Under the pieces are notes generated by a model. The model ran no database searches. It worked only from the letters and a program-made list of their open reading frames with translations, and was not told the DNA's origin. From NCBI RefSeq assembly GCF_014779555.2, contig NZ_CP094357.1:2604001-2668000 (forward strand): a stretch of DNA of 64,000 nt, written 5' to 3'. Origin of the DNA: Lysobacter capsici (lineage in GTDB: Bacteria; Pseudomonadota; Gammaproteobacteria; Xanthomonadales; Xanthomonadaceae). How positions within the stretch are numbered: position 1 is the first letter of the stretch; the number at the start of each line of letters is the position of its first letter. The translations under genes were made by a program, and so were the position numbers. This document shows positions 3,012 through 61,743 of the stretch, in pieces.

Positions 3012-4040
3012 ATGAAGAAGGCAGCGCTTCCGCAGGACTTCTTCATCCATGTCGCCGCCGCGCTGATCGCCATCGCGTTCTGCCTGCTCAGCGGCTGGCT
3101 GTTGTTCCGGATGCCCGAACTGCCGTCGACCGCGCCGCCGCTGGAAGTGATCTATATCGAGCGTGTCGTCGCCGATACGCAGCCGTCGCCGTCGCCGCAA
3201 CGAGCGTCGATCGTGCCGTCGACGCAGACAACGCAGCCAACGCGAAGCCTTGCCCCCGAGGCGGCGACCTCGCCGAGTTCCGCTGCGCCTCGCAGCGAGC
3301 GGCTGCCCGATGTGCCGATACGCCCGGCGACGAATCCAACGACACCGCCGAACACCAGCCGGTTGTACGCGGCCGACGGACAGATCGTGCTGCCCGCGGG
3401 CGTCGCCGTGGACCCGATGCGCAAGCCCGACGGCGACCCGCCGGGCGGCGCCAACGATCGCGGCGTGAAACAGATGCAGGCGCTGCTGGAACGTCGCAAT
3501 CCGATCGCGCCCGAGGAAGCCAGCCGTTTCGGCGGCGAGTGGGAGAGCGACGGCACTTTGGGCGAAGTGGCGAACAAGAAACTGAAGACGGGCCTGAAAC
3601 GGGTGATCGCCAAACTGCCGCATCGCAAACAGGTGCAGGAAGTCCGCGCGCGGCCGCCGCCGGCGATCCGTTTCAATCCGGCCTTGCACGAACGTCCGTC
3701 CGACCTGGGCAGCGAAGCCACCGGTGATGCCTACAAGGCCGCGCCGATCGCGTTCGAGAAAGCGCCCGGCTTGGACGGCGAAGCGAGCCGGCGCGTGCGC
3801 AAGTGGGTCGGCGAACTCGAGGCGCGCGCCGCGGGCTGCGACCGGCAACGCTTGAAGGCATTGGTGGCGCCGGTGCTGACGCACTTGGCCGATCTGCAAC
3901 GCGCCGAATACGCCGCGGCGCGCGGCGGCGATCCGATTCAGATCGAGCAACTGCTGCCGCGCACGGCCGATATGGCGTACGACCAGGCGCGTCGCGCGGT
4001 GTGGTATGCGGATAAGAAGCTTTCGGATTGTGCGAAGTAG
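3012..4040 (+). CDS. Membrane-anchored periplasmic protein, unknown function
   Basis: This 342-residue protein opens with a positively charged start and one transmembrane helix (about residues 13-32, AAALIAIAFCLLSGWLLF). A Pro/Ser/Thr/Ala-rich linker follows (about 50-115), then a charged C-terminal region (about 155-342) with an ERRNP-APEEASRFGGEWESDGTLGEVANKK segment and two widely spaced cysteines (AAGCDRQ and SDCAK). The architecture resembles TonB- or energy-transducer-like proteins in outline only, and no TonB fold signature is visible. The function is unknown. Confidence 0.65.
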   Translation: MKKAALPQDFFIHVAAALIAIAFCLLSGWLLFRMPELPSTAPPLEVIYIERVVADTQPSPSPQRASIVPSTQTTQPTRSLAPEAATSPSSAAPRSERLPDVPIRPATNPTTPPNTSRLYAADGQIVLPAGVAVDPMRKPDGDPPGGANDRGVKQMQALLERRNPIAPEEASRFGGEWESDGTLGEVANKKLKTGLKRVIAKLPHRKQVQEVRARPPPAIRFNPALHERPSDLGSEATGDAYKAAPIAFEKAPGLDGEASRRVRKWVGELEARAAGCDRQRLKALVAPVLTHLADLQRAEYAAARGGDPIQIEQLLPRTADMAYDQARRAVWYADKKLSDCAK

Positions 4041-4089
4041 GAAGCACTTTTTCGAAGTTTCATCTGCATACCAGCATTGACGATCTGCA

Positions 4090-4206
4090 AGAACGTCATT
4101 CCCGCGAACGCGGGAACGACGCTCTGGAAGGATGACGCTGAAGTCTCTGGATGTTCGGCTACGCCGAAGTAAAGCGAAGCCCGCTTTGGCGGGAATGACG
4201 TTCTAG
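4090..4206. repeat. REP-like element with terminal inverted repeats
   Basis: AGAACGTCATTCCCGC at 4090 and its inverse GCGGGAATGACGTTCT at 4191-4206 bracket a 117-bp element. The left half contains its own GCGAACGCGGGAA palindrome. The middle carries the phrase GAAGTCTCTGGATGTTCGGC, also found in the clusters at 29.5 and 61.7 kb. Confidence 0.75.
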
Positions 4207-4324
4207 AAGACGACGCTGAAGTCACGTCGACTCGTCGTTACGGCAATCCCATCAGCTGCACAGCGCGAAGGCACCTCGTCCCCACATACGCCCCCGCAGC
4301 TTGTCCGCGCCGTACCCCGGCACT

Positions 4325-4540
4325 ACACTGCGCACGCCACAGGTGTCCTGCCGCCAAGCCATACCGGCGCGCAGGGTGAAACGGGAAGCCGGTGCGGACG
4401 GGATCGTCCAAGGCCGGCGCTGCCCCCGCAACGGTATGCGAGAAAACCCGACGTTTCACCACTGCGTTCGCGCGGGAAGGTGTCGGGGTGATGCAACGGC
4501 ATCGCTCGCAAGCCCGGAGACCGGCCCGTGGCGGGCATCG
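4325..4540 (+). promoter_or_regulatory. Cobalamin (AdoCbl) riboswitch
   Basis: The conserved blocks of the class I cobalamin riboswitch occur in order on the plus strand: ACAGGTGTCCTGCC (4339-4352), GGGAAGCCGGTGCGG (4383-4397), the near-invariant B12-box core GCTGCCCCCGCAACGGTA (4419-4436), and AAGCCCGGAGACCGGCC (4510-4526). It ends about 145 bases before the mmsA start. In most bacteria this RNA lowers expression when adenosylcobalamin binds. The direction of control here is inferred, not seen. Confidence 0.93.
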
Positions 4541-4549
4541 CATGCGATG
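4536..4549 (+). promoter_or_regulatory. Palindrome in the riboswitch expression platform
   Basis: CATCGCATGCGATG is a perfect 14-bp palindrome immediately after the riboswitch, followed by TCCTCC, which is complementary to a Shine-Dalgarno sequence. There is no U-run, so translational rather than terminator-type control is more likely. The role is inferred. Confidence 0.4.
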
Positions 4550-4683
4550 TCCTCCTCGGATGTTGCGGCGGGCAACCGGACGAGCTGATGCAGTCGGCCT
4601 GCGTTCGCCGTTGCCTCGTCTTGTCTTGTCTTGCGTCTCCGCGACATCCGCTTATCCGCGGGTGTGCGTTACGGAGAACGAGC

Positions 4684-6207
4684 ATGAACGAAATGCATCG
4701 CGTTGCGACCGAGGTCGCGACGGTCAAGCTTCTGATCGACGGCGAATTCGTCGAATCCACCACTACTCAATGGCGCGACGTCGTCAACCCGGCCACCCAG
4801 GTCGTGCTGGCGCGCGTGCCGATGGCCACGCGCGAGGAAGTCGACGCCGCCGTCGCCTCGGCCACGCACGCGTTCAAGAGCTGGCGCAAGACCGCGATCG
4901 GCACGCGCGCGCGCATCTTCCTCAAATACCAGCAGCTGATCCGCGAGCACATGAGCGAGCTCGCCGCGATCCTGACCGCCGAACAAGGCAAGACCTTGCC
5001 CGACGCCGAAGGCGATGTGTTCCGCGGCCTGGAAGTGATCGAACACGCCGCCGCGATCGGCAACCTGCAACTGGGCGAACTGGCCAACAACGTCGCCGGC
5101 GGCGTCGACACCTACACCTTGCTGCAACCGCTCGGCGTGTGCGCCGGCATCACCCCGTTCAATTTCCCGGCGATGATTCCGCTGTGGATGTTCCCGATGG
5201 CGATCGCCACCGGCAACACCTTCGTGCTCAAGCCGTCCGAGCAGGATCCGCTGGTGACGATGCGTCTGGTCGAACTGGCGCTGCAGGCCGGTATTCCGAA
5301 GGGCGTGCTCAACGTCGTCCACGGCGGCGAAGACGTGGTCAACGCGATCTGCGATCACGCCGACATCCGCGCGGTGTCGTTCGTCGGTTCGACCAAGGTC
5401 GGCACGCATGTCTATCAGCGTTCGTCGCTGGCCGGCAAGCGCGTGCAGTGCATGATGGGCGCGAAGAATCACGCCGTGGTGCTGGCCGACGCGAACAAGG
5501 AGCAGACCCTCAACGCCATGGCCGGCGCCGCGTTCGGCGCGGCCGGCCAACGCTGCATGGCCGCGTCGACCGCGGTGCTGGTGGGCGAGGCGCGGCACTG
5601 GATCGGCGATCTGGTCGCCAAGGCCAAGACCCTCAAGGTCAACGCCGGCACCGAGCCGGGCACCGATGTGGGTCCGGTGATTTCCTGCGCCGCGCGCGAA
5701 CGCGTCGAAGCCTTGATCGCCTCGGGCGTGGAGCAGGGCGCGAAGCTGGAACTCGACGGACGCAAGCCGTCGGTGCCGGGTTACGAACAAGGCAATTTCA
5801 TCGGCCCGACCGTGTTCTCCGGGGTCAAGCCGGGCATGCGCATCTACGACGAGGAAATCTTCGGCCCGGTGCTGGTGATCCTCGAAGCCGACACGCTCGA
5901 CGACGCGATCGCGCTGGTCAACGCCAATCCCAACGGCAACGGCACCGCGATCTTCACCCAGTCCGGCGCGGCGGCGCGCAGGTTCCAGGAAGAGATCGAC
6001 GTCGGCCAAGTCGGCATCAACCTGCCGATTCCGGTGCCGGTGCCGCTGTTCTCGTTCACCGGTTCGCGCGCGTCCAAGCTCGGCGACCTGGGTCCGTACG
6101 GCAAGCAGGCGGTGATGTTCTACACCCAGACCAAGACCGTCACCGCGCGCTGGTTCGACGAGGAGACCCCGAGCCACGGCGTCAACACCACGATCAGTCT
6201 CAAGTGA
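4684..6207 (+). CDS. mmsA: Methylmalonate-semialdehyde dehydrogenase (CoA-acylating)
   Basis: This 507-residue protein belongs to the aldehyde dehydrogenase superfamily and matches the usual MmsA length. It oxidises methylmalonate semialdehyde to propionyl-CoA, and malonate semialdehyde to acetyl-CoA, with NAD+ and CoA. The nucleophile is Cys291 in GQRCMA. The Rossmann segment [10 protein letters not shown] and the [13 protein letters not shown] block typical of MmsA are present. The start at 4684 follows GGAGAA, and frames reaching further upstream run into the riboswitch. It is the first gene of a six-gene operon behind a cobalamin riboswitch. Confidence 0.95.
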
Positions 6208-7397
6208 TGGCCGCGGTCATGAACTGGCAGGCCACCGCGGCCGCGCCGACCGGACTGAGCGAAGAACAGGCCGCCTACCGCGACGCGGCGCGCGATTTCG
6301 CGCTCGCGCAACTGGGCCCGCACGCCGCGCACTGGGATGCGCAATGCGTGTTCCCGCGCGAAGCGATCGCGCTGGCCGGCGAACTGGGCTTCTGCGGCCT
6401 GTACGTGGACGAAGCCGCCGGCGGTTCGGGCCTGACCCGGCTGGACGCGGCGATCGTGTTCGAGGAACTCGCCGCGATCGATCCGTCGACCGCGGCGTTC
6501 ATCAGCATCCACAACATGGCGACGTGGATGTTGACCGCGCACGCCAACGACGCGGTGCGCAGCGAGTGGGGCGCATCGCTGGCCAGCGGTCAGCGTCTGG
6601 CCTCGTACTGCCTGACCGAACCGGGCGCGGGATCGGACGCGGCCTCGCTGAAGACGCGCGCGGTGCGCGATGGCGATCACTACGTGCTCAACGGCGCGAA
6701 GGCCTTCATTTCCGGCGCCGGATCGACCGACGTACTGGTGGTGATGGCGCGCACCGGCGGCGAGGGCGCGCGCGGCATCAGCGCGTTCGCGGTCGCCGCC
6801 GACAGCGCCGGCATCGCGTACGGGCGCAAGGAAGAAAAGATGGGCTGGAACAGCCAGCCCACCCGCGGCATCAGCTTCGTCGACGTGCGGGTGCCGGCGC
6901 GCAATCTGCTCGGCCGCGAAGGCGACGGCTTCAAGATCGCGATGAAGGGCCTGGACGGCGGACGTCTGAACATCGCCAGCTGTTCGCTCGGCGCGGCCCA
7001 GGGCGCGCTCGACGCGGCGCGGCGCTACATGGGCGAGCGTCGTCAGTTCGGCAAGAAGCTCTCCGAGTTCCAGGCGCTGCAGTTCAAGCTCGCCGACATG
7101 GCCACGCAGTTGATCGCCTCGCGGCAGATGGTGCATACCGCCGCCCGCAAGGTCGACGCGGGCAGCCACGACGCCACCGTGTGGTGCGCGATGGCCAAGC
7201 GCTTCGCCACCGATGCCGGGTTTGCGATCTGCAACGAAGCGCTGCAGATCCACGGCGGCTACGGCTACATCCGCGAGTACCCGATCGAACGTCTGCTGCG
7301 CGACTGCCGGGTCCATCAGATCCTGGAAGGCACCAACGAAATCATGCGCGTGATCATCGCGCGCCATCTGCTGAACACCGACGAGGAATTGCGATGA
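6207..7397 (+). CDS. Acyl-CoA dehydrogenase (isobutyryl-CoA type)
   Basis: The gene encodes a 396-residue FAD flavoprotein with the full acyl-CoA dehydrogenase fold. YCLTEPGAGSDAAS (FAD-binding) lies near residue 135, the QIHGGYGYIREYPIERLLRD signature is near 355, and the catalytic Glu lies in ILEGTNEI. Its position between mmsA and an enoyl-CoA hydratase points to isobutyryl-CoA oxidation in valine breakdown. Propionyl-CoA oxidation to acrylyl-CoA is a possible alternative. The ATG overlaps the mmsA stop by one base (TGATG), which indicates translational coupling. A second in-frame ATG lies four codons in. Confidence 0.9.
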   Translation: MAAVMNWQATAAAPTGLSEEQAAYRDAARDFALAQLGPHAAHWDAQCVFPREAIALAGELGFCGLYVDEAAGGSGLTRLDAAIVFEELAAIDPSTAAFISIHNMATWMLTAHANDAVRSEWGASLASGQRLASYCLTEPGAGSDAASLKTRAVRDGDHYVLNGAKAFISGAGSTDVLVVMARTGGEGARGISAFAVAADSAGIAYGRKEEKMGWNSQPTRGISFVDVRVPARNLLGREGDGFKIAMKGLDGGRLNIASCSLGAAQGALDAARRYMGERRQFGKKLSEFQALQFKLADMATQLIASRQMVHTAARKVDAGSHDATVWCAMAKRFATDAGFAICNEALQIHGGYGYIREYPIERLLRDCRVHQILEGTNEIMRVIIARHLLNTDEELR

Positions 7398-8188
7398 GTC
7401 TTGCCGAGAAGTCCTACACCGGGTTGAAGCTGGAGATCGACGGCCACACCGCCATCGTGACCCTGAGCAATCCGCCGGCCAACACCTGGACGCGCGACAG
7501 CCTCGCCGCCTTGCGCGACCTGGTCCGCGATCTGGACGCGAAGCGCGAGGTGTACGCGTTGGTGATCACCGGCGAAGGCGAGAAGTTCTTTTCCGCCGGC
7601 GCCGATCTCAAGCAGTTCGCCAGCGGCGACAAGGCGCTGGCGCGCGACGCGGCGCGCCGCTTCGGCGAAGCCTTCGAAACCCTCAGCGCGTTTCGCGGCG
7701 TGTCGATCGCGGCGATCAACGGCTATGCGATGGGCGGCGGCCTGGAATGCGCGCTGGCCTGCGATCTGCGCATCGTCGAGGAACAGGCGCAACTGGCCTT
7801 GCCGGAAGCGACCGTCGGCCTGCTGCCGTGCGCGGGCGGCACCCAGAACCTGGCGCGGCTGGTCGGCGAAGGCTGGGCCAAGCGGATGATGCTGCTCGGC
7901 GAGCGCGTCGATGCGGCCACCGCGCTGCGCATCGGTCTGGTCGAGGACGTGGTCGGCAAGGGCGAATCGAAGGCGCGCGCGCTGGCCTGGGCCAAGGCGG
8001 CCGAGAAGCAGAGCCCGACCAGCGTGGCCGCGTGCAAGGCGCTGGTGCAGGCCACGCGTTCGCAATCGCACGCGACCGCGCTGGTCAGCGAGCGCGAGGC
8101 CTTCGTCGATCTGTTCGACAGCGCCGATCAGGTCGAAGGCGTGGCCGCGTTCCTGGAAAAGCGCGCGCCGCAATGGAAGAACGCATGA
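7394..8188 (+). CDS. Enoyl-CoA hydratase
   Basis: This 264-residue crotonase-superfamily protein hydrates methacrylyl-CoA (valine route) or acrylyl-CoA. The oxyanion-hole segments FSAGADLKQF (about 62-71) and GYAMGGGLECALACD (about 110-124) are visible. The catalytic glutamates correspond to LECA and the PEATVGLLP region. It overlaps the previous gene by four bases (ATGA). The length is normal. Substrate preference cannot be read from the sequence. Confidence 0.9.
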   Translation: MSLAEKSYTGLKLEIDGHTAIVTLSNPPANTWTRDSLAALRDLVRDLDAKREVYALVITGEGEKFFSAGADLKQFASGDKALARDAARRFGEAFETLSAFRGVSIAAINGYAMGGGLECALACDLRIVEEQAQLALPEATVGLLPCAGGTQNLARLVGEGWAKRMMLLGERVDAATALRIGLVEDVVGKGESKARALAWAKAAEKQSPTSVAACKALVQATRSQSHATALVSEREAFVDLFDSADQVEGVAAFLEKRAPQWKNA

Positions 8189-9360
8189 ACGCCTCGGTCC
8201 TGGAAGCTCCGGCGCAGGCGCCGGTGCTGTTCGAACAACGCGATGCAGTCGGCGGCAAACAGATCGGCATTGCCACGCTCAACGCGCCGGCCACGCTTAA
8301 CGGCCTGTCGCTGGAGATGGCGCAGTTGCTCGATGCGCAGCTGGCGGTATGGGCGCGCGACGATGCGATCGCGCTTGTGGTGTTGCAGGGCGCTGGCGAA
8401 AAGGCCTTCTGCGCGGGCGGCGATCTGCACGGTCTGTACCGCGGCATGCGCGAGCATCAGGCCAAGGGTGGCGGCGACATCCGCGACAACACCCAGGCCA
8501 CGGCGTTCTTCGCGACCGAATACCGCCTCGACTATCGCATCCACACCTATCCCAAGCCGGTGCTGTGCTGGGGCCACGGCATCGTCATGGGCGGCGGCAT
8601 CGGCCTGATGGCCGGCGCCAGCCATCGCGTCGTCAGCGAACGCTCGCGATTGGCATTTCCGGAAATCACTGTCGGCCTGTATCCGGATGTCGGCGGCAGC
8701 TGGTTGCTGCAGCGCGCGCCAGCGCGCAGCGGCTTGTTCCTGGCCCTGACCGGCGCGCCGTTGAATGCCGGCGATGCGATTCACGTGGGGCTGGCCGATC
8801 ACTTCGTGTCGCAGCAGCGCTACGACGCGGTGTTCGCAGCCTTGGCAGCGACGAAGTGGAGCGGCGACGGCGACGGCGATCGCGAGCTGCTGACTGAACT
8901 GCTGCAGGAACAGGCGCAATCCGCGCCGGCCGGGCCGCTGCAACAGCATGCGGCGCTGATCGCGCAGCTGTGCGACGCCGAAGACCTGGACACGATCGTC
9001 GCGCGCATCGAATCGATCGATCACGATGATCAGTGGCTGCAGACCGCGCGCAAGACCTTGGCCGCGGGCGCGCCGGGATCGGCGCGCTTGGGCTACGAAC
9101 TGCAACGGCGCGCGGCGACGCTGTCGTTGGCCGATACGTTCCGGCTCGAATACCTGGTGTCGCTGCATTGCGCCGCGCACGGCGATTTCGCCGAAGGCAT
9201 CCGCGCCTTGCTGATCGACAAGGACCGCAATCCGAAGTGGAACCCGGCCACGCTGGCCGAGGCCTCGGCGGCCTGGGTCGCGCCGTTCTTCGTCGCGCCG
9301 TGGCCGCGGGATGCGCATGCGCTGGCCGACCTCGAACGCAGTGTGGAGAACCCGGCATGA
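8185..9360 (+). CDS. 3-Hydroxyisobutyryl-CoA hydrolase
   Basis: This is a 391-residue crotonase-fold protein, longer than a hydratase and of the size of HIBCH-type thioesterases (EC 3.1.2.4). KAFCAGGDLHGLYRG (about 72-86) and WGHGIVMGGGIGLMAGASHRVV (split by the oxyanion glycines) are diagnostic, with PEITVGLYPDVGGSW following. It releases free 3-hydroxyisobutyrate or 3-hydroxypropionate from the CoA ester. The ATG at 8185 overlaps the preceding stop (ATGA). An in-frame ATG at 8173 is a less likely alternative. Confidence 0.9.
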   Translation: MNASVLEAPAQAPVLFEQRDAVGGKQIGIATLNAPATLNGLSLEMAQLLDAQLAVWARDDAIALVVLQGAGEKAFCAGGDLHGLYRGMREHQAKGGGDIRDNTQATAFFATEYRLDYRIHTYPKPVLCWGHGIVMGGGIGLMAGASHRVVSERSRLAFPEITVGLYPDVGGSWLLQRAPARSGLFLALTGAPLNAGDAIHVGLADHFVSQQRYDAVFAALAATKWSGDGDGDRELLTELLQEQAQSAPAGPLQQHAALIAQLCDAEDLDTIVARIESIDHDDQWLQTARKTLAAGAPGSARLGYELQRRAATLSLADTFRLEYLVSLHCAAHGDFAEGIRALLIDKDRNPKWNPATLAEASAAWVAPFFVAPWPRDAHALADLERSVENPA

Positions 9361-10247
9361 CCCGTATCGCTTTCATCGGTCTTGGCAACATGGGCGGCCC
9401 GATGGCCGCGAACCTGCTCAAGGCCGGCCACGAAGTGCAGGTGTTCGACCTGAGCGTCGCCGCGGTCGGCAGTGCGGTGGCCGCGGGCGCGCATGCGGCC
9501 GCCAGCGCGACGGCGGCGGTGGCCGGCGCGCAGATCGTGATCTCGATGCTGCCGGCGAGCCGGCATGTCGAGGGCTTGTACCTCGGCGACGCCGGCATTC
9601 TCGCGGCGATCGAGCCCGGCGCCTTGGTCATCGATTGCAGCACCATCGCGCCGGCATCGGCGCAGAAGGTCGCGGCCGCCGCGGCGGAGCGGGGCGTGAC
9701 GATGATCGACGCGCCGGTCTCCGGCGGCACCGCCGGCGCGGCGGCCGGCAGCCTGACCTTCATCGTCGGCGGCGACGCCGATGCGCTGGAACGCGCGCGT
9801 CCGATCCTGCAGGCGATGGGCAAGAACATCTTCCACGTCGGCGCGAACGGCGCCGGCCAGGTCGCCAAGCTGTGCAATAACATGGCGCTGGGCGTGATCA
9901 TGGCGGTGACCGGCGAGGCGTTGGCGCTGGGCGTCGCGCACGGCCTCGACCCGAAAGTGTTGTCGCAGATGATGGCGGTCAGCACCAGCCGCAGCTGGGC
10001 GACCGAAGTGTGCAACCCGTGGCCGGGCGTGCTCGACAACGCGCCGGCGTCGCGCGGCTACAGCGGCGGTTTCGGCAACGACCTCATGCTCAAGGATCTC
10101 GGTTTGGCCGCCGAAGCCGCCATGGGCGTCGGCGCCTCGATTCCGCTGGGCGAACTGGCGCGCAATCTGTATGCGATGAACAGCCGCGCCGGCCACGGCG
10201 GCCTGGATTTCTCCAGCGTGGTCAAGCTGGTCGCGCGGGGCGCATGA
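9357..10247 (+). CDS. mmsB: 3-Hydroxyisobutyrate dehydrogenase
   Basis: The protein has 296 residues with the N-terminal NAD-binding signature [20 protein letters not shown] of beta-hydroxyacid dehydrogenases, the substrate motif [17 protein letters not shown] (about 118-134), the catalytic-lysine helix [11 protein letters not shown], and [18 protein letters not shown] near the C-terminus. It oxidises 3-hydroxyisobutyrate to methylmalonate semialdehyde, the substrate of MmsA. Enzymes of this family can also accept 3-hydroxypropionate. It overlaps both neighbours by ATGA, so it is inside the same operon. Confidence 0.93.
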
Positions 10248-10915
10248 GCGGCGAGCGCAAGCGCCTGAGCCTGCCGGGCGAGGGCGGCAAACTGTTGCTG
10301 CATTCGTGCTGCGCGCCGTGTTCGGGCGAGTTGATGGAGGCCTTCGTCGAGTCGCAGATCGACTACACGGTGTTCTTCTACAACCCGAACATCCACCCGG
10401 TGAAGGAATACGAGCTGCGCAAGGAGGAAAACATCCGCTTCGCGCAGAAACACGGCGTGCCCTTCGTCGATGCCGACTACGACACCGATAACTGGTTCGC
10501 CCGCGCCAAGGGCATGGAGAACGAACCCGAGCGCGGCATCCGCTGCACCATGTGCTTCGACATGCGCTTCGAACGCAGCGCGCTGTATGCGCACGAGCAC
10601 AGGTTTCCGGTGATGACCACCTCGCTGGGTATTTCGCGCTGGAAGAACATGCAGCAGATCAACGACGCCGGCCGTCGCGCGGTCGCGCCGTATCCGCGGT
10701 TGAGCTACTGGGACTACAACTGGCGCAAGGACGGCGGCAGCCAGCGCATGATCGAGATCAGCAAGCGCGAACAGTTCTATCAGCAGGAATACTGCGGATG
10801 CGTGTATTCGCTGCGCGACACCAACCGTCATCGCAAGGCGCAGGGCCGCGAACGGATCAAGCTCGGGGTGATGTTCTACGGCGAAGACGGCGGCCGCGAA
10901 CCCGAGGCAAAGTGA
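10244..10915 (+). CDS. queH: Epoxyqueuosine reductase QueH (cobalamin-independent)
   Basis: The 223-residue protein matches the QueH (DUF208) family. [15 protein letters not shown] (about 17-31) holds the adjacent cysteines, [18 protein letters not shown] follows, [13 protein letters not shown] lies near 103, and a C-terminal YCGCVYS supplies further metal-binding cysteines. QueH reduces epoxyqueuosine to queuosine in tRNA without cobalamin and replaces the unrelated B12-dependent QueG. Its ATG overlaps the mmsB stop (ATGA), placing it last in the riboswitch-controlled operon. It has no metabolic link to valine breakdown. Confidence 0.9.
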
Positions 10916-10930
10916 CGGGTTCGCCGCGCG

Positions 10931-12178
10931 CTACAGCGTTTCCAGATAGGCCACGATCGCATCGAGCTCGGCGCGATGCAGGTCCAGCGGTTTGAGCAGC
11001 GGGTCGGGCTGCGGAAACAAGGGGTCGCCGACCTGCGCCGCGGTCGGCCGCGGCCGGGGCATGCCGACGTTGTACAGATTCATCACCCCGCGCAGATTGG
11101 CGAAGCGGCCGTTGTGCATCCACGGCCCGGTCCTGGCCACGTTGCGCAGCGACGGCGTCTTGAACTTGCCGGCGTCGGCGGCCAGGCCGGTGACCTCGTA
11201 ACGGCCCAGGTCCTGCAGTTTGCGGCCGTAGAAATGCAGTCCGAGGTTATGGAACGACTGATCGCTCAGGCTCGCGCCGCTGTGGCAGTTCATGCAGCCG
11301 GCGCGGGTGCGGAACAGGTGCAGACCCCACAGCTGGCGATCGTCGAGCAGATCGCGGCGGCCTTCCAGAAACCGGTCGAAGCGATTGGCGCGCGGCAGCA
11401 GACTGCGCTGAAAGGTGGCCAGCGCCTTGCTCACCTGATTCATGTCGATGCGCGATGAGCCGAACGCGGCGGCGAACGCTTTCGGGTAATCGGCGTCGCG
11501 GCGCAATCGCTTCAAAATCAGCGTCGGTTTCGCGGCCATTTCGCGCGGATCGGTGATCGGATGCAGGGCCTGCGCTTCCAGGGTCTGCGCACGGCCGTCC
11601 CAGAACAGCGGCTGCGACAGGCCGCTCATCGCGAGCGAGATCGCATTGCGGCGGCCGCTGCGGCGATCGTGGCCGAACGGCACGCTGCGGCCGTCGCCCC
11701 AGCCCAGTTCGCGATCGTGGCAGCTCGCGCAGGCGATCTGGCCGGAACCCGACAAGCGCGGATCCTCGAACAGCCGGCGCCCGAGCGCGAGTTTCTCCGC
11801 GCTCGGTGGATTGTCGGCCGGATACGGCGCGGCCTTTGGCAGCGGCGCGAACTCCGACCACACCGCGCCGGGCTCGAGCTGCGGCCGCGGCCATTGTTCG
11901 ATCGGCAGGCTGTAGATGCGGCGAAGGCAGTCGCGATCGATCTGCGCGCTGCTGACCGCGATGCGCTCGCGGCATTGCGTCAGGCTGGGCGATTGCGCGC
12001 CGCGCAGGGCGCCGACGTCCTGCGCGGAACTCGCTGGCGCCCACGACACCGCGCTTATTACGCCCGCGCCAAGCAGCCACGGCGCGGCCACGGAGGCGAG
12101 GCGCAAACGCAGACGCGCAGCCAACGAGCGCGGCGAATACGCGCTCGGCAACAGCAGCGAGCGCATCAACGCTCGCAC
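10931..12178 (-). CDS. Di-heme cytochrome c peroxidase (CcpA/MauG family)
   Basis: This 415-residue protein has an N-terminal membrane or signal segment (about 30-52, ending ASSAQ). Two c-type heme sites are visible, CASCH (about residue 150) and CMNCH (about 300), the hallmark of bacterial di-heme peroxidases. LFWDGRAQTLEAQALHPI and KTPSLRNVARTGPWMHNGRF are conserved family blocks. It is periplasmic by inference. It lies 31 bp downstream of a TonB-dependent receptor gene on the same strand and is probably co-transcribed. Related MauG/MbnH enzymes oxidise partner proteins rather than detoxify peroxide, so either role is possible. Confidence 0.88.
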   Translation of the reverse strand: MRALMRSLLLPSAYSPRSLAARLRLRLASVAAPWLLGAGVISAVSWAPASSAQDVGALRGAQSPSLTQCRERIAVSSAQIDRDCLRRIYSLPIEQWPRPQLEPGAVWSEFAPLPKAAPYPADNPPSAEKLALGRRLFEDPRLSGSGQIACASCHDRELGWGDGRSVPFGHDRRSGRRNAISLAMSGLSQPLFWDGRAQTLEAQALHPITDPREMAAKPTLILKRLRRDADYPKAFAAAFGSSRIDMNQVSKALATFQRSLLPRANRFDRFLEGRRDLLDDRQLWGLHLFRTRAGCMNCHSGASLSDQSFHNLGLHFYGRKLQDLGRYEVTGLAADAGKFKTPSLRNVARTGPWMHNGRFANLRGVMNLYNVGMPRPRPTAAQVGDPLFPQPDPLLKPLDLHRAELDAIVAYLETL

Positions 12179-12209: not shown

Positions 12210-14738
12210 TCAGAACCGATACCCCAGTTCCAGCCAGTACGAGCGGCCGGGTTCGTAATACGTGGCGGTCGCGCTGGTGCTGCTGATCAGGTTGGCGCGG
12301 TTGGTCAGGTTCTGCACTTCGATGCGCGCATAGGTTTCCTGCCGATGCGGCAGGTCCAGGCTCCATTCGACGCTGGTGTCCCAGGTCCAGCTTTTCGGAT
12401 AGGCGATTTCCTCGATCACCGCGATCGATTCGCCGTTGTAGATCTCGCGGCCCAGCTCGCGCAGCCCGCGGTAACCGCCGCGATAACGCAGGAAGTTGCT
12501 CCACAATAGGCCGGCCTCGGGCAGCCGGGTCTGCGTGGCCAGACGCGCGGTCCACGGCCGATTGAACTCGCGCGCCGGGATGTCCCAGCGCCGCATGATC
12601 TTGCCGTCGTAGCGCACGTTGTCGTCGAAGGCGTCGCTGTAGGCGCTCTCGTAGTCGTTGTAGTTGCGGCGCACGTCGGTGTAGTCGAACGCCAGTTGCG
12701 CATTGGTGACGCTGCCGGCCCAGCGCAGCGGCGTCGCCGGGCCGACGCTGAGCGTGTAAGTCTGGCTGCGGCTTTGGCCGCGATTGGTGTAACGGCTGAT
12801 CCGGGTCGCGTACTGGCCGCTGGTGTCCAGGCTCGGGATCGATTCGCGCAGCACTTCGTCGCGGTTCTCGCGGCGCACGTATTTCAGGTTGAGGTCCAGC
12901 CCGGCCCAGCGCTGATTGACGCCCGCCGATACCTCGTCGCTGTAGGGAATGCGCAGCCGGTCGAAGCGATAATTGGTCGGGTACTGACGCACGTCGGTCC
13001 AGATCAGATTGCCGCTGCGGCGTTGTTCCAGCTGCAGACTTTCGCGGCCTTCGCGCAGTTTGTAGCTGAAGAAACTGCGGCCGTAATAGCGGTTGAGGCC
13101 GGCGGTGAACAAGGTGTCGCGGTCGCCGAACGCATCCCAGGACATCGCCAGTCGCGGCGCGAGCGTGGTCTTGCCCATCAGGCTATCGCCGTCGACGCGC
13201 ACGCCGGGGCGCAGGCTCCAGCGGCCCAGGCGCACGTCGTCCTGGGCGAACACGCTCCATTCGCGGTTGCTCGCGCCGAAGTAGCCTTTGCGATAGATGG
13301 CGCGGCGGCTGAAGTACTGGCCGCGTCCCTTGACCACGCCGTTGCCGGTCGCCAGCACCGGCGACAGCGAGCAGCCGTCGGTGTCGATCACACCGAGGCG
13401 ATCGGTGCAGGTGTTGGTCGCGACCGGATCGAGCCAACTGTAGTGATCGTTGAGGCGGTGGTACTCGGCCTTGCGGTCGCGGTATTCCAGGCCGTACTGC
13501 AGACGATGTTCGCTGCGGCCCAAGCGCAGCGCCTCGCGTTCCAGGCTCAGCTTGTAGCCGATGCTGCGGTCGCTCTGATCGATATTGCCCCAGCTGCCTT
13601 CGCCGCTGAGCGTGGTCACGCCCCAATCCATCTGGCTGGAACGCGCCCAGGATTTCCAGTAATCGACCTCGCTGCGGCGCGAGCTGTCGAGCTGGCTGTA
13701 GCTGAGCGAATTGCGCCAGGTCCAGGCGCCGTGTTGCCAGTTGATGCGGAAACTGGTGACCGGGCCGCCTTGCTTGAGGTCGTAGAAGCCGTTCTTGGCG
13801 TTGATGATGAAATAGCGCTCGTCGGTCGGCGCGTAGGTCACGCTGGCGCCGAGTTCCAGACCTTCGCCGTTGCTCCAGTCCGCGCGCAGGCTGGCGCTGG
13901 TGTTTTCGCGCACCTGCTCCTTGAGGTTGTCATCGCCGGGGCTGCTGCGCCCGGCGGTGTAGCCGCGCAGCGGAATCACCGAGCGCGTGCGCACGATGTT
14001 GCCGATCAGGCCCAGGCCGTTTTGGCTGCGGCCTTCGAGCGTCGCGCGCAGTTCGTACTTGTCGTAGTTCGGCTGCTGCGCTTCGGTCGCCGACTGCTGG
14101 AAATCGCCGAGCGCCGGTTCGGCGATATGCGCCTGGTTCCAGACCGAACGCGCCATGCGCAGCGCGACGCTGCCGGAAAACGCATCGCGCGCCTTGCGGC
14201 TTTCGGCCTCGACCACGCCGCCGTTGAAGCCGCCGTACGCTGCCGGCACGTTGCTGTCGTAGACGGTGAGGCTGCCGATCAGGCTGGTGTCGAGCGCGAT
14301 GCCCTGGGTATGGCTCGGCACGTCCTGAATATTCGCCGGCGACGACGGGCCGACCGGATCGAGGTCGTTGTTGAAGCTGGCGCCGTCGAGCAGGAACGAG
14401 TTCTGGTAGTACAGGCCGCCGTTGATGCTGATGTCGGCCGGGCGGATCTCGCCCATGTTGCGCGAGGTGCGCGAGGTCTCGTCGAACTGCACGTTCGGAT
14501 TGATCCGCAGCAGGCTGCCGATGTCGCCGTTGCCGCGGATCTGTTCGTCGATGTAGGCGCGGTCCAGCACCAGGCCTTCCTGATACGGGAACAGGCGTTG
14601 GCCGATCACCTTGACCGGATCGTAGGTGTAGACGGAAGCAGAGGGCGCCGGGACGGTTTGCGTAGCGGCCGGCGCGTCGTTCGCGCACAGCGGGCCAGCC
14701 GACAGCGCCAGGCCGATGGCCAGGGTCAGACGATTCAT
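12210..14738 (-). CDS. TonB-dependent outer-membrane receptor
   Basis: The gene encodes 842 residues with a signal peptide (about 1-19, ending LCAN). A TonB-box-like stretch follows near 40-50 (YDPVKVIGQRL), then a plug domain (GGLYYQNSFLLDGASFNNDLDP, about 108-130) and a 22-strand-type barrel ending in the outer-membrane signature ELGYRF. Ligand specificity is not recognisable. Co-location with a di-heme peroxidase suggests metal- or redox-linked uptake. The start codon sits one base after a perfect inverted repeat that could control translation. Confidence 0.9.
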   Translation of the reverse strand: MNRLTLAIGLALSAGPLCANDAPAATQTVPAPSASVYTYDPVKVIGQRLFPYQEGLVLDRAYIDEQIRGNGDIGSLLRINPNVQFDETSRTSRNMGEIRPADISINGGLYYQNSFLLDGASFNNDLDPVGPSSPANIQDVPSHTQGIALDTSLIGSLTVYDSNVPAAYGGFNGGVVEAESRKARDAFSGSVALRMARSVWNQAHIAEPALGDFQQSATEAQQPNYDKYELRATLEGRSQNGLGLIGNIVRTRSVIPLRGYTAGRSSPGDDNLKEQVRENTSASLRADWSNGEGLELGASVTYAPTDERYFIINAKNGFYDLKQGGPVTSFRINWQHGAWTWRNSLSYSQLDSSRRSEVDYWKSWARSSQMDWGVTTLSGEGSWGNIDQSDRSIGYKLSLEREALRLGRSEHRLQYGLEYRDRKAEYHRLNDHYSWLDPVATNTCTDRLGVIDTDGCSLSPVLATGNGVVKGRGQYFSRRAIYRKGYFGASNREWSVFAQDDVRLGRWSLRPGVRVDGDSLMGKTTLAPRLAMSWDAFGDRDTLFTAGLNRYYGRSFFSYKLREGRESLQLEQRRSGNLIWTDVRQYPTNYRFDRLRIPYSDEVSAGVNQRWAGLDLNLKYVRRENRDEVLRESIPSLDTSGQYATRISRYTNRGQSRSQTYTLSVGPATPLRWAGSVTNAQLAFDYTDVRRNYNDYESAYSDAFDDNVRYDGKIMRRWDIPAREFNRPWTARLATQTRLPEAGLLWSNFLRYRGGYRGLRELGREIYNGESIAVIEEIAYPKSWTWDTSVEWSLDLPHRQETYARIEVQNLTNRANLISSTSATATYYEPGRSYWLELGYRF

Positions 14739-15089: not shown

Positions 15090-17561
15090 TCATTGCGCTG
15101 CCTTGGCCAGCGTGGACGGCGAAACCGAGCAATGACCCGGACCGGTGCTGCCCTCGTTGTATGCAGCGAGAATGCCGGCCAGATTGATCGCGGTGTCGCG
15201 CGCGGGTCCCTTCGGCGCCGCGCTGCTGCGTCCGGTGAACCACGCGGTCGCCTGCGCGATCGCGCTGCTCACCTGCGACGGAGCACTCGCGCCCGCTTCC
15301 ACATTCAACCGCGCCGCCATGTATTGGTGGGCGAGGATGTAGTAAGCGTTGCCGCCCTTCGGCGGAGTCCAGAACACCGCGTACCACGTCTGTCCGGAGC
15401 TGAAGAACAGCGTGTTTTCGCCGATCTTCGCCCAGGTCGCGTCGTAGGGCGCGGGGCCGTACTTGGAGTGGGTCTTCCAGTAGCCCTGGGTGTAGGTGCA
15501 GCCCGCGCTCGCGCACAGTTGCGGCACGCGCACGCTCAGCACCGCCTCGTCGCTCTTGCTCGCGCCGTTGTCGGTCGCCAGCGTGAGCAGGTTGGGCACC
15601 ATGAACTCACAGGTGTTGCCCGCGCCGATCTGGCTCGCAGGCAGCCACGAAGCGAGCACGTCCACGCTGCGGACGATGCCCGGATCGGGGTCGACGTCGC
15701 CGGTCACGAACTGGGCGAAGCTGCCGCACAACAGCGGCTGCACGGTCCAGCCGAAGCCGGTGCCGAGGTTGAGCCCGGCGGTGCCGTTGAACAGATCGGT
15801 CAGCAGCACGCAACGGTCGGTCTCCACGTTGGGCTCGCCGTAGGACAACGCGGCCTGATTGGAGGTGTAGGCCTGCAGTCCGCAATCGCTGGCGTTGCCG
15901 TTGGCGTCGTAGCACTGCTTCACGCGCTGGATGATCGCTTCGTTGTAGCCGTCCAGCTTGCCGCTCAACGCGGCCTGGTAGCTGCAATGCAGCGAGGTGG
16001 CGCCTTGCGCGTCGCAGGTCGGCGCGACAGACTGGGTCGTTCCGCCGGCGAAGTGCAGGGTGTCGCTGGGCGCGGACGGACTGAACAACGGCGTCACGTC
16101 GGCCGGCCATCCGATCTGGATGTCGCCGGACACGGCGAAGCCGCTCTCCGATTCGATGCCGCGGGTCGCGGCGAGCCGGTACACGGTCTCGTAACTGCCG
16201 CCGGTGTTGAGCATGACGTCGACGTCGTCGCACAGGTAATTGCCCGCGTAGTCGCCGCTGACGATCGGATCGGGCAGGCAGCCCTGCATCGCGGTGACCT
16301 TGGCGTCGGCCGGCGACACCACGATGTGCTTGTCCGGCGTCCAGCCGTAGTCGCGCTCGTAGCGGGTCTGCGCGGTCTTGGAGATCGAGACCGTGCGGCA
16401 GGCCACGTTGACGTTGGCCGAATCGCTGGCGCTGGCGTTGCTGTTCGCGCCGGTGCTCCAGGTGCCGGTGGCGGTGTTGCCGTGCGAGCCCTGATCGGCG
16501 CCGCACACGAACGGCTGCGCGCGCGGATAGGTCCACACGTACGGACCGTCGCCGAGATTGAAGCTGTGGTCGACCGCGTTGGGCAGCATGGAGTCGTCGA
16601 TCGCGAAGCTGTCGCCGTAGCTCTGCGCCGGGTTGGCCGGGATCGAGAAGTTGGCGGTGGCCGCGAAGGTGTAGCTCTGCGCGCCGCCCTGCAGTTGCGC
16701 GGTGATGCCCGCGGCGTTGACGCCGCCGCTCGCGCTCGACAGGAACGGATAGCTCAGGCTGCTCAGATCGAACGCGTAACTGCAGTTGAGGATGATCTTC
16801 TGCGCGTTAGGCGCCGGCTTGGCGCAATCCAGGGTGTCGGTGTCGCCGCCCTGCGAGGTCCACTGCGCGATGAACTGATTCGGCGCGTTGCCGAACTGCA
16901 TGGTGTCGACCACCGCGGTGGCTTTCCAGCCGAAGTCGAACGGGTCCTTGACCGTGATCGTGCCGGCGATGCGGTACAGCCCGCGGGTGAGCGGGGTGGC
17001 GGTCACGGTGTATTCGACCTGGTGGCTGTCGCCGTCGAACATGGTGATCTGCTCGGGCACTACGCGCTTGTCGATGCTCCAGTCGCTGTAGCGCTGCCAG
17101 CTGGCGTCGGCGGTCTTCTCGCCGGTGGGCTTGGGCACGAAGCAGAAGGTGACGTGGCTGACGCCGGCGGGTTGGCCGCTGCCGTTGTCGGGCGAATACA
17201 GGTTGATGTCGCTCGACATGCCCGGAACGTAGTGGAACACGTTGTAGGCGTTGCCGCCTTTGACCACGATGTAGTCCATCGGCATGGTCGCGTTGAAGCC
17301 GATGTACTGGTTCTGCGAGGACGGCGTGTAGTTGAAGGTGATGGTCTGGCCGGCGACGCCCAGGTTGTAGCTCTGGCCGTTGATCGGCGCGCTGCCGGTG
17401 CTGTAGCCCAGACCGCCCCAGGTGGCGACACCGGGCAGGTCGTCGCAGCTGGTGAAGTTGCCCGGATAGGTGGTCGGTTGCACCGAGGCCGCCCAGGCCG
17501 CGGAGGATGCGAGCAATAGCGCCGCTGTCAGCAGCGGTCGCCAACGTCGTTGAGTGGACAT
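15090..17561 (-). CDS. Large secreted protein with TQGYWKTH motif
   Basis: The 823-residue protein begins with a typical Sec signal peptide (PLLTAALLLASSAAWA, cleavage near residue 24). Two segments (RYSDWSIDKRVVP near 195 and RYERDYGWTPDKHIVVSP near 395) look like copies of the same beta-sandwich repeat. It contains many cysteines. The C-terminal part has CTYTQGYWKTHSKYGP, a motif seen in many large secreted proteins of unknown role. The ATG at 17561 follows GGAG. An adhesin or surface protein is possible. No enzyme signature is seen. Confidence 0.7.
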   Translation of the reverse strand: MSTQRRWRPLLTAALLLASSAAWAASVQPTTYPGNFTSCDDLPGVATWGGLGYSTGSAPINGQSYNLGVAGQTITFNYTPSSQNQYIGFNATMPMDYIVVKGGNAYNVFHYVPGMSSDINLYSPDNGSGQPAGVSHVTFCFVPKPTGEKTADASWQRYSDWSIDKRVVPEQITMFDGDSHQVEYTVTATPLTRGLYRIAGTITVKDPFDFGWKATAVVDTMQFGNAPNQFIAQWTSQGGDTDTLDCAKPAPNAQKIILNCSYAFDLSSLSYPFLSSASGGVNAAGITAQLQGGAQSYTFAATANFSIPANPAQSYGDSFAIDDSMLPNAVDHSFNLGDGPYVWTYPRAQPFVCGADQGSHGNTATGTWSTGANSNASASDSANVNVACRTVSISKTAQTRYERDYGWTPDKHIVVSPADAKVTAMQGCLPDPIVSGDYAGNYLCDDVDVMLNTGGSYETVYRLAATRGIESESGFAVSGDIQIGWPADVTPLFSPSAPSDTLHFAGGTTQSVAPTCDAQGATSLHCSYQAALSGKLDGYNEAIIQRVKQCYDANGNASDCGLQAYTSNQAALSYGEPNVETDRCVLLTDLFNGTAGLNLGTGFGWTVQPLLCGSFAQFVTGDVDPDPGIVRSVDVLASWLPASQIGAGNTCEFMVPNLLTLATDNGASKSDEAVLSVRVPQLCASAGCTYTQGYWKTHSKYGPAPYDATWAKIGENTLFFSSGQTWYAVFWTPPKGGNAYYILAHQYMAARLNVEAGASAPSQVSSAIAQATAWFTGRSSAAPKGPARDTAINLAGILAAYNEGSTGPGHCSVSPSTLAKAAQ

Positions 17562-18043
17562 GTCAGAACTCCATGAGCGGGGCGTGGTCGCCCGTTCGAT
17601 GCGCTCGGTAGCTCGGCCGTGCCGGCGTGGGACCGGTACCCGGAGGCTTTGCGACGCCGGCTCTCGCCGGGTGTGCCTTTTTCGAGTCCTGGGTGATGCG
17701 GCGTGGTGTTTAGTTTCCCCAAATGCACGTCGTCTGCGGAGCCGCCTGGTCCATGCGGTAGTGAACACGGCATCCGATGCGGGCGAATATACGCTCGGCA
17801 TCGGGCTTGTCGATGTTTCAATAACGAAACAGTCGTGGCGGCGCGCGGGCCTGGGGATCAGCCGGTTCGCTGCGGTGCGGGTCCCGCGGCGAAAGCGTGA
17901 AATGTGAACGTATTCACGCGTTTGACCCGCTATTAATGCAATTCAGCAAATGCCGCACCGCAGCATGTTTGTGACGGATTTGGCAAATAGAGTCGTGCGG
18001 CGACCACACCCGGTCGCCAGCCAATACCTCAAGGTACCAGCCA
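17562..18043. other. Divergent intergenic region
   Basis: The 482 bases separate two divergently transcribed exported proteins and should contain both promoters. An AT-richer patch (17900-17960, with TTGACC and TATTAATGC) is the best promoter candidate for the subtilase gene, but I cannot assign -10 and -35 boxes confidently. No gene is seen. Confidence 0.4.
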
Positions 18044-25823: not shown

Positions 25824-26335
25824 GTAAGCTGAGGGGGCGTGCTCGAGGGCGCGCGCTTGAGGGGGCGTGCTTGTGACGGGGCATGCGCGAGTGGAGCGGC
25901 GTGAGGCTCGTCGATGAGGCGAGCTGAGGTGAGGCCACCTTGCTCGTCATCCCCGCGAAGGCGGGGATCCAGAGACTTCAGCGCGATCCATCAAGGTCGT
26001 CATTCCCGCGAAGGCGGCAATTCAGAGACTTCAGCGTCATCCTTCCAGATCGTCATTCCCGCGAATGCGGGAATCCATAGACTTCAGCGCCATTCTTCCA
26101 GATCGTCATTCCCGCGAAGGCGGGAATCCAGTGCCTTTCGTGCGAGAACGCCTGAAGTCACTGGATTCCCGCCTTCGCGGGAATGACGGTAGGAGGTGGC
26201 CAGGCGGCTCGAGCGTGGCGTTGCTTCGAGTGCCTTGCAAATAGGCATCCGTGAAAGTGGATGGCTTGAGCGTTAGCAGAGCTGGAGCAGTAGCCAGGCT
26301 TGCGCTGTGGCACAGCCAGATCACTACGCTCTGAT
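25824..26335. repeat. REP-like palindrome cluster
   Basis: At least five copies or half-copies of the GTCATTCCCGCGAAGGCGGGAA family lie between about 25946 and 26188. They are linked by the phrase CCAGAGACTTCAGCG and end in an inverted copy (GCGGGAATGACGG). A degenerate GGGGCGTGCTTGAG repeat (25830-25880) precedes the cluster. No gene is seen in this gap. Confidence 0.8.
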
Positions 26336-29317: not shown

Positions 29318-29670
29318 CCGTCATTCCCGCGAAGGCGGGGATCCAGAGGCTTCAGCGTCATCCCACCAGACCGTCATTCCCGCGAACATGGGAATCCAGT
29401 GACTTCAGCGTCGTCCCACTAGGACGTCATCCCCGCGAGGGCGAGGATCCAGAAGCTTCAGCGTCATCCCACCAGGACGTCATTCCCGCGAAAGCGGGCT
29501 CTGCTTTACTTCGGCGAAGCCGAACATCCAGAGACTTCAGCGTCGTCCCACCAGACCGTCATTCCCGCGAACGCGGGAATCCAGTGACTTCAAACGTTCT
29601 CGCACGAAAGGCCCTGGATGTTCGGCTTCGCCGAAGTAAAGCAGAGCCCGCCTTCGCGGGAATGACGGTA
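29318..29670. repeat. REP-like palindrome cluster
   Basis: Six or more GTCATTCCCGCGAA elements are separated by a regular spacer (GGGATCCAGAGGCTTCAGCGTCATCCC type) and end in an inverted copy at 29646-29667. One unit is the composite form containing CTTTACTTCGGCGAAGCCGA. No gene is seen from 29281 to 29902. Confidence 0.85.
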
Positions 29671-47634: not shown

Positions 47635-47980
47635 AGACCGTCATTTGCGCGTTCGCGCGAATGACGGACTTGGGATGTCGCGCTGAAGTCTCTGGGTCCC
47701 CGCCTTCGCGGGGATGACGGTCTTGCTTCGCGAGGATGACCGCTTTAGATGGACGTGGTTATGGCATCCCATAACCGTTTCCACCGCGGCATGGACCGGC
47801 TCTGCAATTTAACTTGCCGCGTCGCCCCCAGACCGTCATTCCCGCGAAGGCGGGAATCCAGAGACTTCAGCGAGTTCTCTCCAGAACGTCATTCCCGCGA
47901 AGGCGGGAATCCAGTGCCTTTCGTGCGAGAACGCTCGAAGTCACTGGATTCCCGCCTTCGCGGGAATGACGGTCTGAAAG
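47635..47980. repeat. REP-like palindrome cluster
   Basis: GTCATTTGCGCGTTCGCGCGAATGACGG (split palindrome, 47640-47666), GGGGATGACGG (47711), and copies at 47826-47850, 47886-47910 and inverted at 47946-47972 form a cluster between carB and greA. The last pair flanks CAGTGCCTTTCGTGCGAG. No gene is seen from 47617 to 48150. Confidence 0.8.
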
Positions 47981-61626: not shown

Positions 61627-61743
61627 CCCAGGTCGTCATTCCCGCGAACGCGGGAATCCAGCGACTTTCGTGCAGATCGCGTCAAAGACACTGGATGCTC
61701 GGCTGACGCCGAGTAAAAGCGGAGCCCGCGTTCGCGGGAATGA
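61627..61743. repeat. REP-like composite element
   Basis: CGTCATTCCCGCGAACGCGGGAA (split palindrome, 61634-61656) and the inverse CGTTCGCGGGAATGACGG at 61729-61746 flank a spacer with GACACTGGATGCTCGGCTGACGCCGAG. It separates the GH92 and GH20 genes. Confidence 0.75.

Follow-up and report, generated by a model that had tools for sequence, protein, structure and literature searches.

In a 64,000-nucleotide stretch of the Lysobacter capsici genome (NZ_CP094357.1, positions 2,604,001 to 2,668,000 of the forward strand; hereafter the window), a cobalamin riboswitch precedes an operon encoding five enzymes of distal valine catabolism followed by QueH, a B12-independent epoxyqueuosine reductase. 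We consider it likely that this riboswitch decides which of two routes valine-derived isobutyryl-CoA takes and that queH replaces the B12-dependent QueG in the same way. When B12 is available, the fused isobutyryl-CoA mutase IcmF, encoded elsewhere in the genome, would turn valine-derived isobutyryl-CoA into butyryl-CoA, and the switch would silence the operon. When B12 is short, IcmF would be left without its cofactor and the switch would open; the operon's dehydrogenase, hydratase, 3-hydroxyisobutyryl-CoA hydrolase (HIBCH), MmsB and MmsA would then take isobutyryl-CoA to propionyl-CoA, which could enter the B12-independent methylcitrate cycle, and QueH, encoded by the last gene of the operon, would stand in for QueG.

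A preliminary description of this DNA, made from the letters alone, had placed a cobalamin riboswitch upstream of mmsA. A covariance search bears this out: the match to RF00174 lies well above the gathering score of 31.5 bits, covers the whole model (positions 1–189 of 189), and was recovered as G000:C1:2608324-2608543 when the complete source genome (G000) was searched. The gene content given there was equally accurate; mmsA, an acyl-CoA dehydrogenase gene, ech, hibch, mmsB and queH follow one another on the plus strand with overlaps of 1, 4, 4, 4 and 4 bases (Table 1). MmsA, HIBCH and the 3-hydroxyisobutyrate dehydrogenase (HIBADH) encoded by mmsB all reach their curated family cut-offs, as expected of a distal valine operon. 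The acyl-CoA dehydrogenase falls short of every NCBIfam cut-off; among solved structures it is most like human ACAD8, an isobutyryl-CoA dehydrogenase, with the next best scoring 317 bits. Its closest named relatives are from Stenotrophomonas nitritireducens and Luteibacter. The resemblance to ACAD8 makes it a putative isobutyryl-CoA dehydrogenase, and the ech product is presumed to be the methacrylyl-CoA hydratase. Solved relatives of the hibch product are 3ju1 (best), 4hdt and 3bpt. The queH product has no NCBIfam match.

Table 1. Riboswitch, leader elements and operon genes in the window.
Feature	Position	Strand	Evidence
Cobalamin riboswitch aptamer, RF00174	4324..4543	+	cmscan 104.5 bits, E 4.2e-25
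Short hairpin GTTGC-GGCGG-GCAAC directly 3' of the aptamer	4562..4576	+	GTTGCGGNGGGC; kept in 19/20 aligned riboswitched leaders
Shine-Dalgarno-like GGAG of mmsA	4673..4676	+	predicted pairing with upstream leader, not above shuffled controls
mmsA, CoA-acylating methylmalonate-semialdehyde dehydrogenase	4684..6207	+	TIGR01722 731 bits, cut-off 448.5
Acyl-CoA dehydrogenase, ACAD8-like	6207..7397	+	Pfam acyl-CoA dehydrogenase domains; PDB 1rx0 (human ACAD8) 452 bits
ech, enoyl-CoA hydratase	7394..8188	+	NF006566 445 bits, cut-off 286; family scan begun at 7397, one codon short of the 7394 start
hibch, 3-hydroxyisobutyryl-CoA hydrolase	8185..9360	+	NF004127 338 bits, cut-off 274
mmsB, 3-hydroxyisobutyrate dehydrogenase (HIBADH)	9357..10247	+	TIGR01692 399 bits, cut-off 291.6
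queH, B12-independent epoxyqueuosine reductase	10244..10915	+	PF02677 219 bits; PDB QueH 7lc5 91 bits

The source genome, a single contig of 6.24 Mb, contains five cobalamin riboswitches, the fifth of which was placed at the second match in locus L112. The four other than the operon copy precede two TonB receptor genes, nrdAB (a class I-type ribonucleotide reductase, RNR) and metE (1064 bits, TIGR01371), so the operon is part of a regulon that combines uptake genes with B12-free alternatives; as a set, these riboswitches form the usual transport-and-isozyme regulon. B12-dependent counterparts of the operon's enzymes are encoded in the same genome, namely IcmF and QueG. The latter (499 bits), the B12-dependent counterpart of QueH, upholds the earlier suggestion that QueH replaces a B12-dependent enzyme.

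Both PF01642 matches in the source genome fall within one open reading frame (ORF), which encodes its sole mutase of this family and is of the IcmF type; no methylmalonyl-CoA mutase (MCM) was found in this genome-wide PF01642 search. The protein (1204 aa) joins a B12-binding, a MeaB and a mutase domain in a single chain, the architecture of IcmF, and scores 1313 bits against the Cupriavidus metallidurans IcmF (4xc6) versus at most 266 bits against HCM and MCM entries. At two sites aligned with IcmF pocket residues it has Phe665 (in MFAGEG) and Gln852 (in QNTCIF), which we take to be the IcmF residues at the two specificity sites. The corresponding residues of MCM are Tyr and Arg, as given in the accessible text of PMC7238569. 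The mutase is thus an IcmF by sequence, a B12-dependent fused isobutyryl-CoA mutase of predicted activity; the reaction is the one stated in the portion of PMC10481361 available to us. A residue stretch at about 494–545 of this protein (L181:8586-12200, minus strand) forms a linker insert, SPHPSPLPQAGEGAG..., that is mostly absent from the G098 protein and is possibly a translated interspersed repeat.

The icmF gene lies about 1 Mb away from the operon, with no riboswitch in the surrounding 16 kb (L181). A divergent gene 1.7 kb away from it most resembles leucine dehydrogenases among solved structures (459 bits); its best NCBIfam model is tryptophan dehydrogenase, below cut-off. Of 19 further genomes, 15 have a gene of this kind within about 3.5 kb of IcmF; none was found in the IcmF regions of G075, G040, G049 and G048. 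A catabolic role of IcmF here, in the use of valine, is plausible; in Streptomyces albus, a mutase bypass converts valine-derived isobutyryl-CoA to butyryl-CoA and the mutase is induced by valine, according to the accessible part of PMC8176718. For the other branch, prpC, prpB and prpE are located within about 6 kb of each other in the source genome, prpB and prpE being separated by a SUFU-domain gene. Since the only mutase is of the IcmF type and prpB, prpC and prpE are present, the propionyl-CoA route seems not to need B12, and the organism can probably use propionyl-CoA without this cofactor, the methylcitrate cycle being known here from those three genes.

To place the operon in its phylogenetic context, 198 genomes of the family were compared. 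A PF01642-type mutase match, counted whatever its subtype, was found in 163 of them and the operon in 35, identically by mmsA and by HIBCH; nine genomes have both, 26 the operon alone, 154 the mutase alone and nine neither, and all five of the latter that are listed by name are less than 90% complete. A mutase, the classical route, or both together with a B12 switch are therefore present in 189 of the 198. Among the mutase matches listed, most start near profile position 144–154 in long ORFs, like the source protein, and none begins at position 1–3, unlike true MCMs; G117, G168 and G167 have single matches from profile position 24. The Fisher test of mutase against operon gives p = 1.3e-17, a value not corrected for kinship.

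The riboswitch follows this distribution closely. It precedes mmsA in all nine genomes that have both the mutase and the operon and in none of the 26 that have the operon alone, and a separate RF00174 search again showed its absence at mmsA in the 26. Whole-genome searches of 38 operon-bearing genomes (the 26 and 12 named ones) found at least one cobalamin riboswitch in 37; because 25 of the 26 carry one elsewhere, the absence at mmsA is local. The nearest of these other riboswitches is at least 3.7 kb from mmsA, and none lies upstream in the same direction. IcmF together with a riboswitched operon also occurs in six genomes of the same genus (G001, G002, G004, G005, G007 and G009) and in G075, of another family. 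In the 12 named loci (L031–L042), the riboswitch is found in S. nitritireducens, two Luteibacter and S. mori, and a mutase in the genomes of S. nitritireducens and the two Luteibacter, with none found in the other nine. One of these records, L040, is titled Bacillus subtilis SK7B5 and has a valine operon grouping with Stenotrophomonas; it is probably mislabelled or contaminated. Detection relied on a hidden Markov model (HMM) built from Rfam-found copies, as a regular expression missed many true ones; cmscan on the named loci other than L041 (11 of 12) and the whole-genome RF00174 search served as checks on the model.

Altogether, the same operon stands behind a riboswitch in 19 other genomes with aligned leaders, a repetition that makes the arrangement more than chance. 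The association of riboswitch with IcmF has a Fisher p of 1.4e-8, or 0.0035 when counted by genus (3 vs 10), neither corrected for kinship. Taken as an exclusion the pattern is strong: in no family genome sampled does a mutase accompany a riboswitch-free operon. Taken as a tally of events it is weak. As a separate observation, the HIBCH match of G036 (G036:C10:169130-170284) contains one in-frame TGA.

In a tree of mmsA and the dehydrogenase (58 rows), all 20 riboswitched operons and that of Luteibacter GAK28 form one clade (99/95); an earlier tree of mmsA only was weaker, with four changes each for riboswitch and IcmF and 12 of 58 rows left out. Both members of this clade in which IcmF was not found have an altered leader. 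In GAK28 (L037), the flanks are kept and the aptamer is cleanly absent when compared with the two other Luteibacter: what remains includes the leader start, the last part of the P13 hairpin and the stretch leading up to the start codon. Searched by motif, no scar of this type was found in the other 33 riboswitch-free leaders. In S. mori (L042), the riboswitch core has CGCCG at the site of the CACT[GA] found in 98 of 101 distinct riboswitches, and the copy is the weakest of those at the operon (79 bits by HMM vs 99–123 in the other 19), which suggests decay of the aptamer.

We hold with somewhat less confidence, yet still favour, a fuller account in which B12 supply sends valine carbon either to butyryl-CoA through IcmF or to propionyl-CoA through the classical route, and in which the valine genes and queH would travel as a mobile, transferable riboswitched cassette, gained by IcmF-bearing genomes and losing its aptamer after IcmF is lost.

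Downstream of the aptamer, the short hairpin at 4562–4576 is probably P13/L13 of the expression platform; the G075 leader is the one without part of its 5' arm. Cobalamin would lower operon expression, a direction that we infer from the nature of the target genes. Hairpins over the GGAG are predicted in most leaders. Occlusion of the Shine-Dalgarno (SD) sequence was considered as the expression platform and set aside, the pairing not being distinct from shuffled-upstream controls; translational control is no more than a possibility. The consensus fold of the platform had almost no structure, and no sigma-70-like promoter was seen in window 4000–11000. About 200 bases upstream of the riboswitch lies one of a set of palindromic CATTCCCGCG-GCGGGAATGACG repeats resembling repetitive extragenic palindromic (REP) elements, found at window positions 4094–4121, 25998–26188, 29319–29584, 47639–47971 and 61634–61661; counting both strands and allowing up to 3 mismatches there are 22 matches versus 0.02 expected, with many palindromes counted twice.

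Several results weigh against a choice between IcmF and the operon. No riboswitch was found at any of 68 loci outside the order (L043–L110, not all of which hold the whole operon). A mutase search in the genomes of 18 of these loci found an IcmF-like ORF of 1129 aa and an MCM in Comamonadaceae 2FH (L067), which has the operon but no riboswitch, so the link between IcmF and the riboswitch is not universal; in L066 and L074, shorter ORFs give a second mutase match of unassigned type. S. mori retains a recognisable riboswitch (RF00174, 76 bits) with no IcmF found, and the change in its core does not prove decay because the riboswitches of L002 and L005 also lack CACT[GA] yet score 119–120 bits. 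GAK28 is a metagenome-assembled genome (MAG); its missing IcmF could reflect incompleteness, and an assembly or completeness error is a possible cause of the absent aptamer. Predicted SD occlusion averaged 0.82 in the 20 riboswitched leaders and 0.65 in those free of a riboswitch (28 of 33, the other five having no SD-like motif), no better than with shuffled upstream sequence. Finally, on the tree of mmsA and the dehydrogenase there are two changes of the riboswitch and three of IcmF, and only two independent pairs. With the riboswitched operons in one clade and so few changes, a sign test cannot reach 0.05, and the Fisher values are therefore descriptive.

Could the switch instead serve queH, the valine genes being passengers of an operon that recruited it, or the reverse? 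In the riboswitched loci, queH begins 0–18 bases after mmsB in 14 of 17, or 17 of 20 with G006, G015 and G017 added by coordinates, and it adjoins mmsB in none of 12 loci that have neither riboswitch nor scar (in G036 it lies 3.7 kb further on). S. mori has the riboswitch and queH without IcmF, and in G020, another genome without IcmF, a riboswitch precedes, within L114 6044-8163 (minus strand), a MetE-core-like protein gene (PF01717, 455 aa) and queH, a further B12-free pair. However, G005, G075 and Luteibacter OK325 keep the riboswitch with no queH in the operon, whereas GAK28, in which queH also follows mmsB, has lost the aptamer. The gene is the last of the operon, and it is IcmF that the riboswitch tracks; QueG occurs almost everywhere, exceeding the cut-off in 78 of 80 relatives (QueH is found in 13 of the 80, with G036 having QueH and no QueG). 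We regard a switch serving queH as unlikely; the data fit queH as a second B12-free stand-in that would have joined the same switch. The queH of G098 (L236 856-1492, minus strand) matches in two pieces and is probably broken or affected by a sequencing error.

Slightly less probable still is shared ancestry alone, under which the riboswitched valine operon arose once and spread among IcmF carriers by chance, with no functional link. The single riboswitched clade with few changes on the tree and the commonness of the mutase in the family (163 of 198) are what such a history would give. Yet it predicts that most riboswitch-free operons should sit in IcmF genomes, and none of the 26 does; moreover, the aptamer is deleted or mutated in each of the two operons of the riboswitched clade whose genomes lack IcmF.

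The preliminary description had also read the operon as a B12-independent propionate shunt, oxidising propionyl-CoA at low B12 via acrylyl-CoA, 3-hydroxypropionate and malonate semialdehyde to acetyl-CoA in place of the methylmalonyl-CoA route. The Caenorhabditis elegans shunt uses similar enzyme classes whose human homologues act on valine intermediates, as far as the accessible text of PMC4951191 goes, and broad substrate use by the operon enzymes is possible; but with no MCM found in the source genome, no B12-dependent propionate step was found to replace, and together with prpB, prpC and prpE this leaves no reason for a B12-controlled shunt, which we rejected as the main explanation and consider very improbable. 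The operon dehydrogenase is nearest ACAD8, MmsB is a HIBADH where the worm, by the same partial source, uses an ADHFE1-type enzyme (no HPHD-1/ADHFE1 type being found among the operon enzymes), and across the family the riboswitch tracks IcmF. What survives of the proposed B12-independence operon is its general sense, that of B12-free alternatives under a B12 switch, with QueG and IcmF in the genome; the B12-dependent activity backed up is more likely to be isobutyryl-CoA mutase.

In the source genome, a second MmsA paralogue (L241, about 4923-6299, minus strand; TIGR01722, 707 bits) is 49% identical to the operon copy, and no other operon gene was found near it. Convergent with the operon are genes for a MauG/MbnH-like di-haem enzyme (window 10931–12178, minus strand) and a large ORF without an NCBIfam match (12210–14738, minus strand). 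A cyclic di-GMP-I riboswitch (RF01051, 44.4 bits) at window 17604–17687 on the minus strand falls within the 5' part of the minus-strand ORF 15090–17801, whose true start is probably downstream of it.

If the proposed choice of routes is correct, the B12-free backup kept under a riboswitch would be an entire pathway, not just one isozyme. To our knowledge, the cellular role of IcmF in proteobacteria is unsettled. IcmF would then gain a concrete one, in valine catabolism, because 189 of the 198 family genomes keep the mutase or the classical route, or have both and a B12 switch between them. A strain lacking icmF would be expected to use valine or isobutyrate in the absence of B12 and to fail to do so in its presence, and the B12 dependence of valine use could be annotated in Lysobacter-like and related bacteria. 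The arrangement is real and mostly explained, a known kind of regulation acting on a new target. We found no report of this riboswitch target among the open papers listed in full-text searches (subscription papers and regulon databases were outside the search), and a valine operon does not appear as a riboswitch target in the accessible parts of PMC3766115 and PMC9600662.

Among known systems, loci of Xanthomonas and S. maltophilia (L033, L038 and L039) encode the same five valine enzymes in the same order; these loci lack both a riboswitch and a neighbouring queH, and a search of their genomes for a mutase found none. With the C. metallidurans IcmF, the source mutase shares the fused architecture and the aligned pocket residues; here, icmF stands beside a leucine-dehydrogenase-like gene and at a megabase's distance from the operon. 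Common to this operon and the C. elegans shunt, as far as the latter is described in the text available, is a beta-oxidation-like route of valine-type enzymes that is used at low B12, as predicted for the operon; here, by contrast, no MCM route was found to replace, HIBADH takes the place of HPHD-1, and control would be exerted by RNA, whereas it is transcriptional in the worm. The nearest parallel in regulation is the riboswitch control of B12-free isozymes such as metE and class I RNR, which is established (PMC3766115, PMC9600662, in the parts accessible), the former source naming a class of "isozymes of B12-dependent enzymes". The same RF00174 element stands before B12-free counterparts in both cases, but in Lysobacter the five enzymes of a whole alternative pathway would stand in for one mutase, with queH added.

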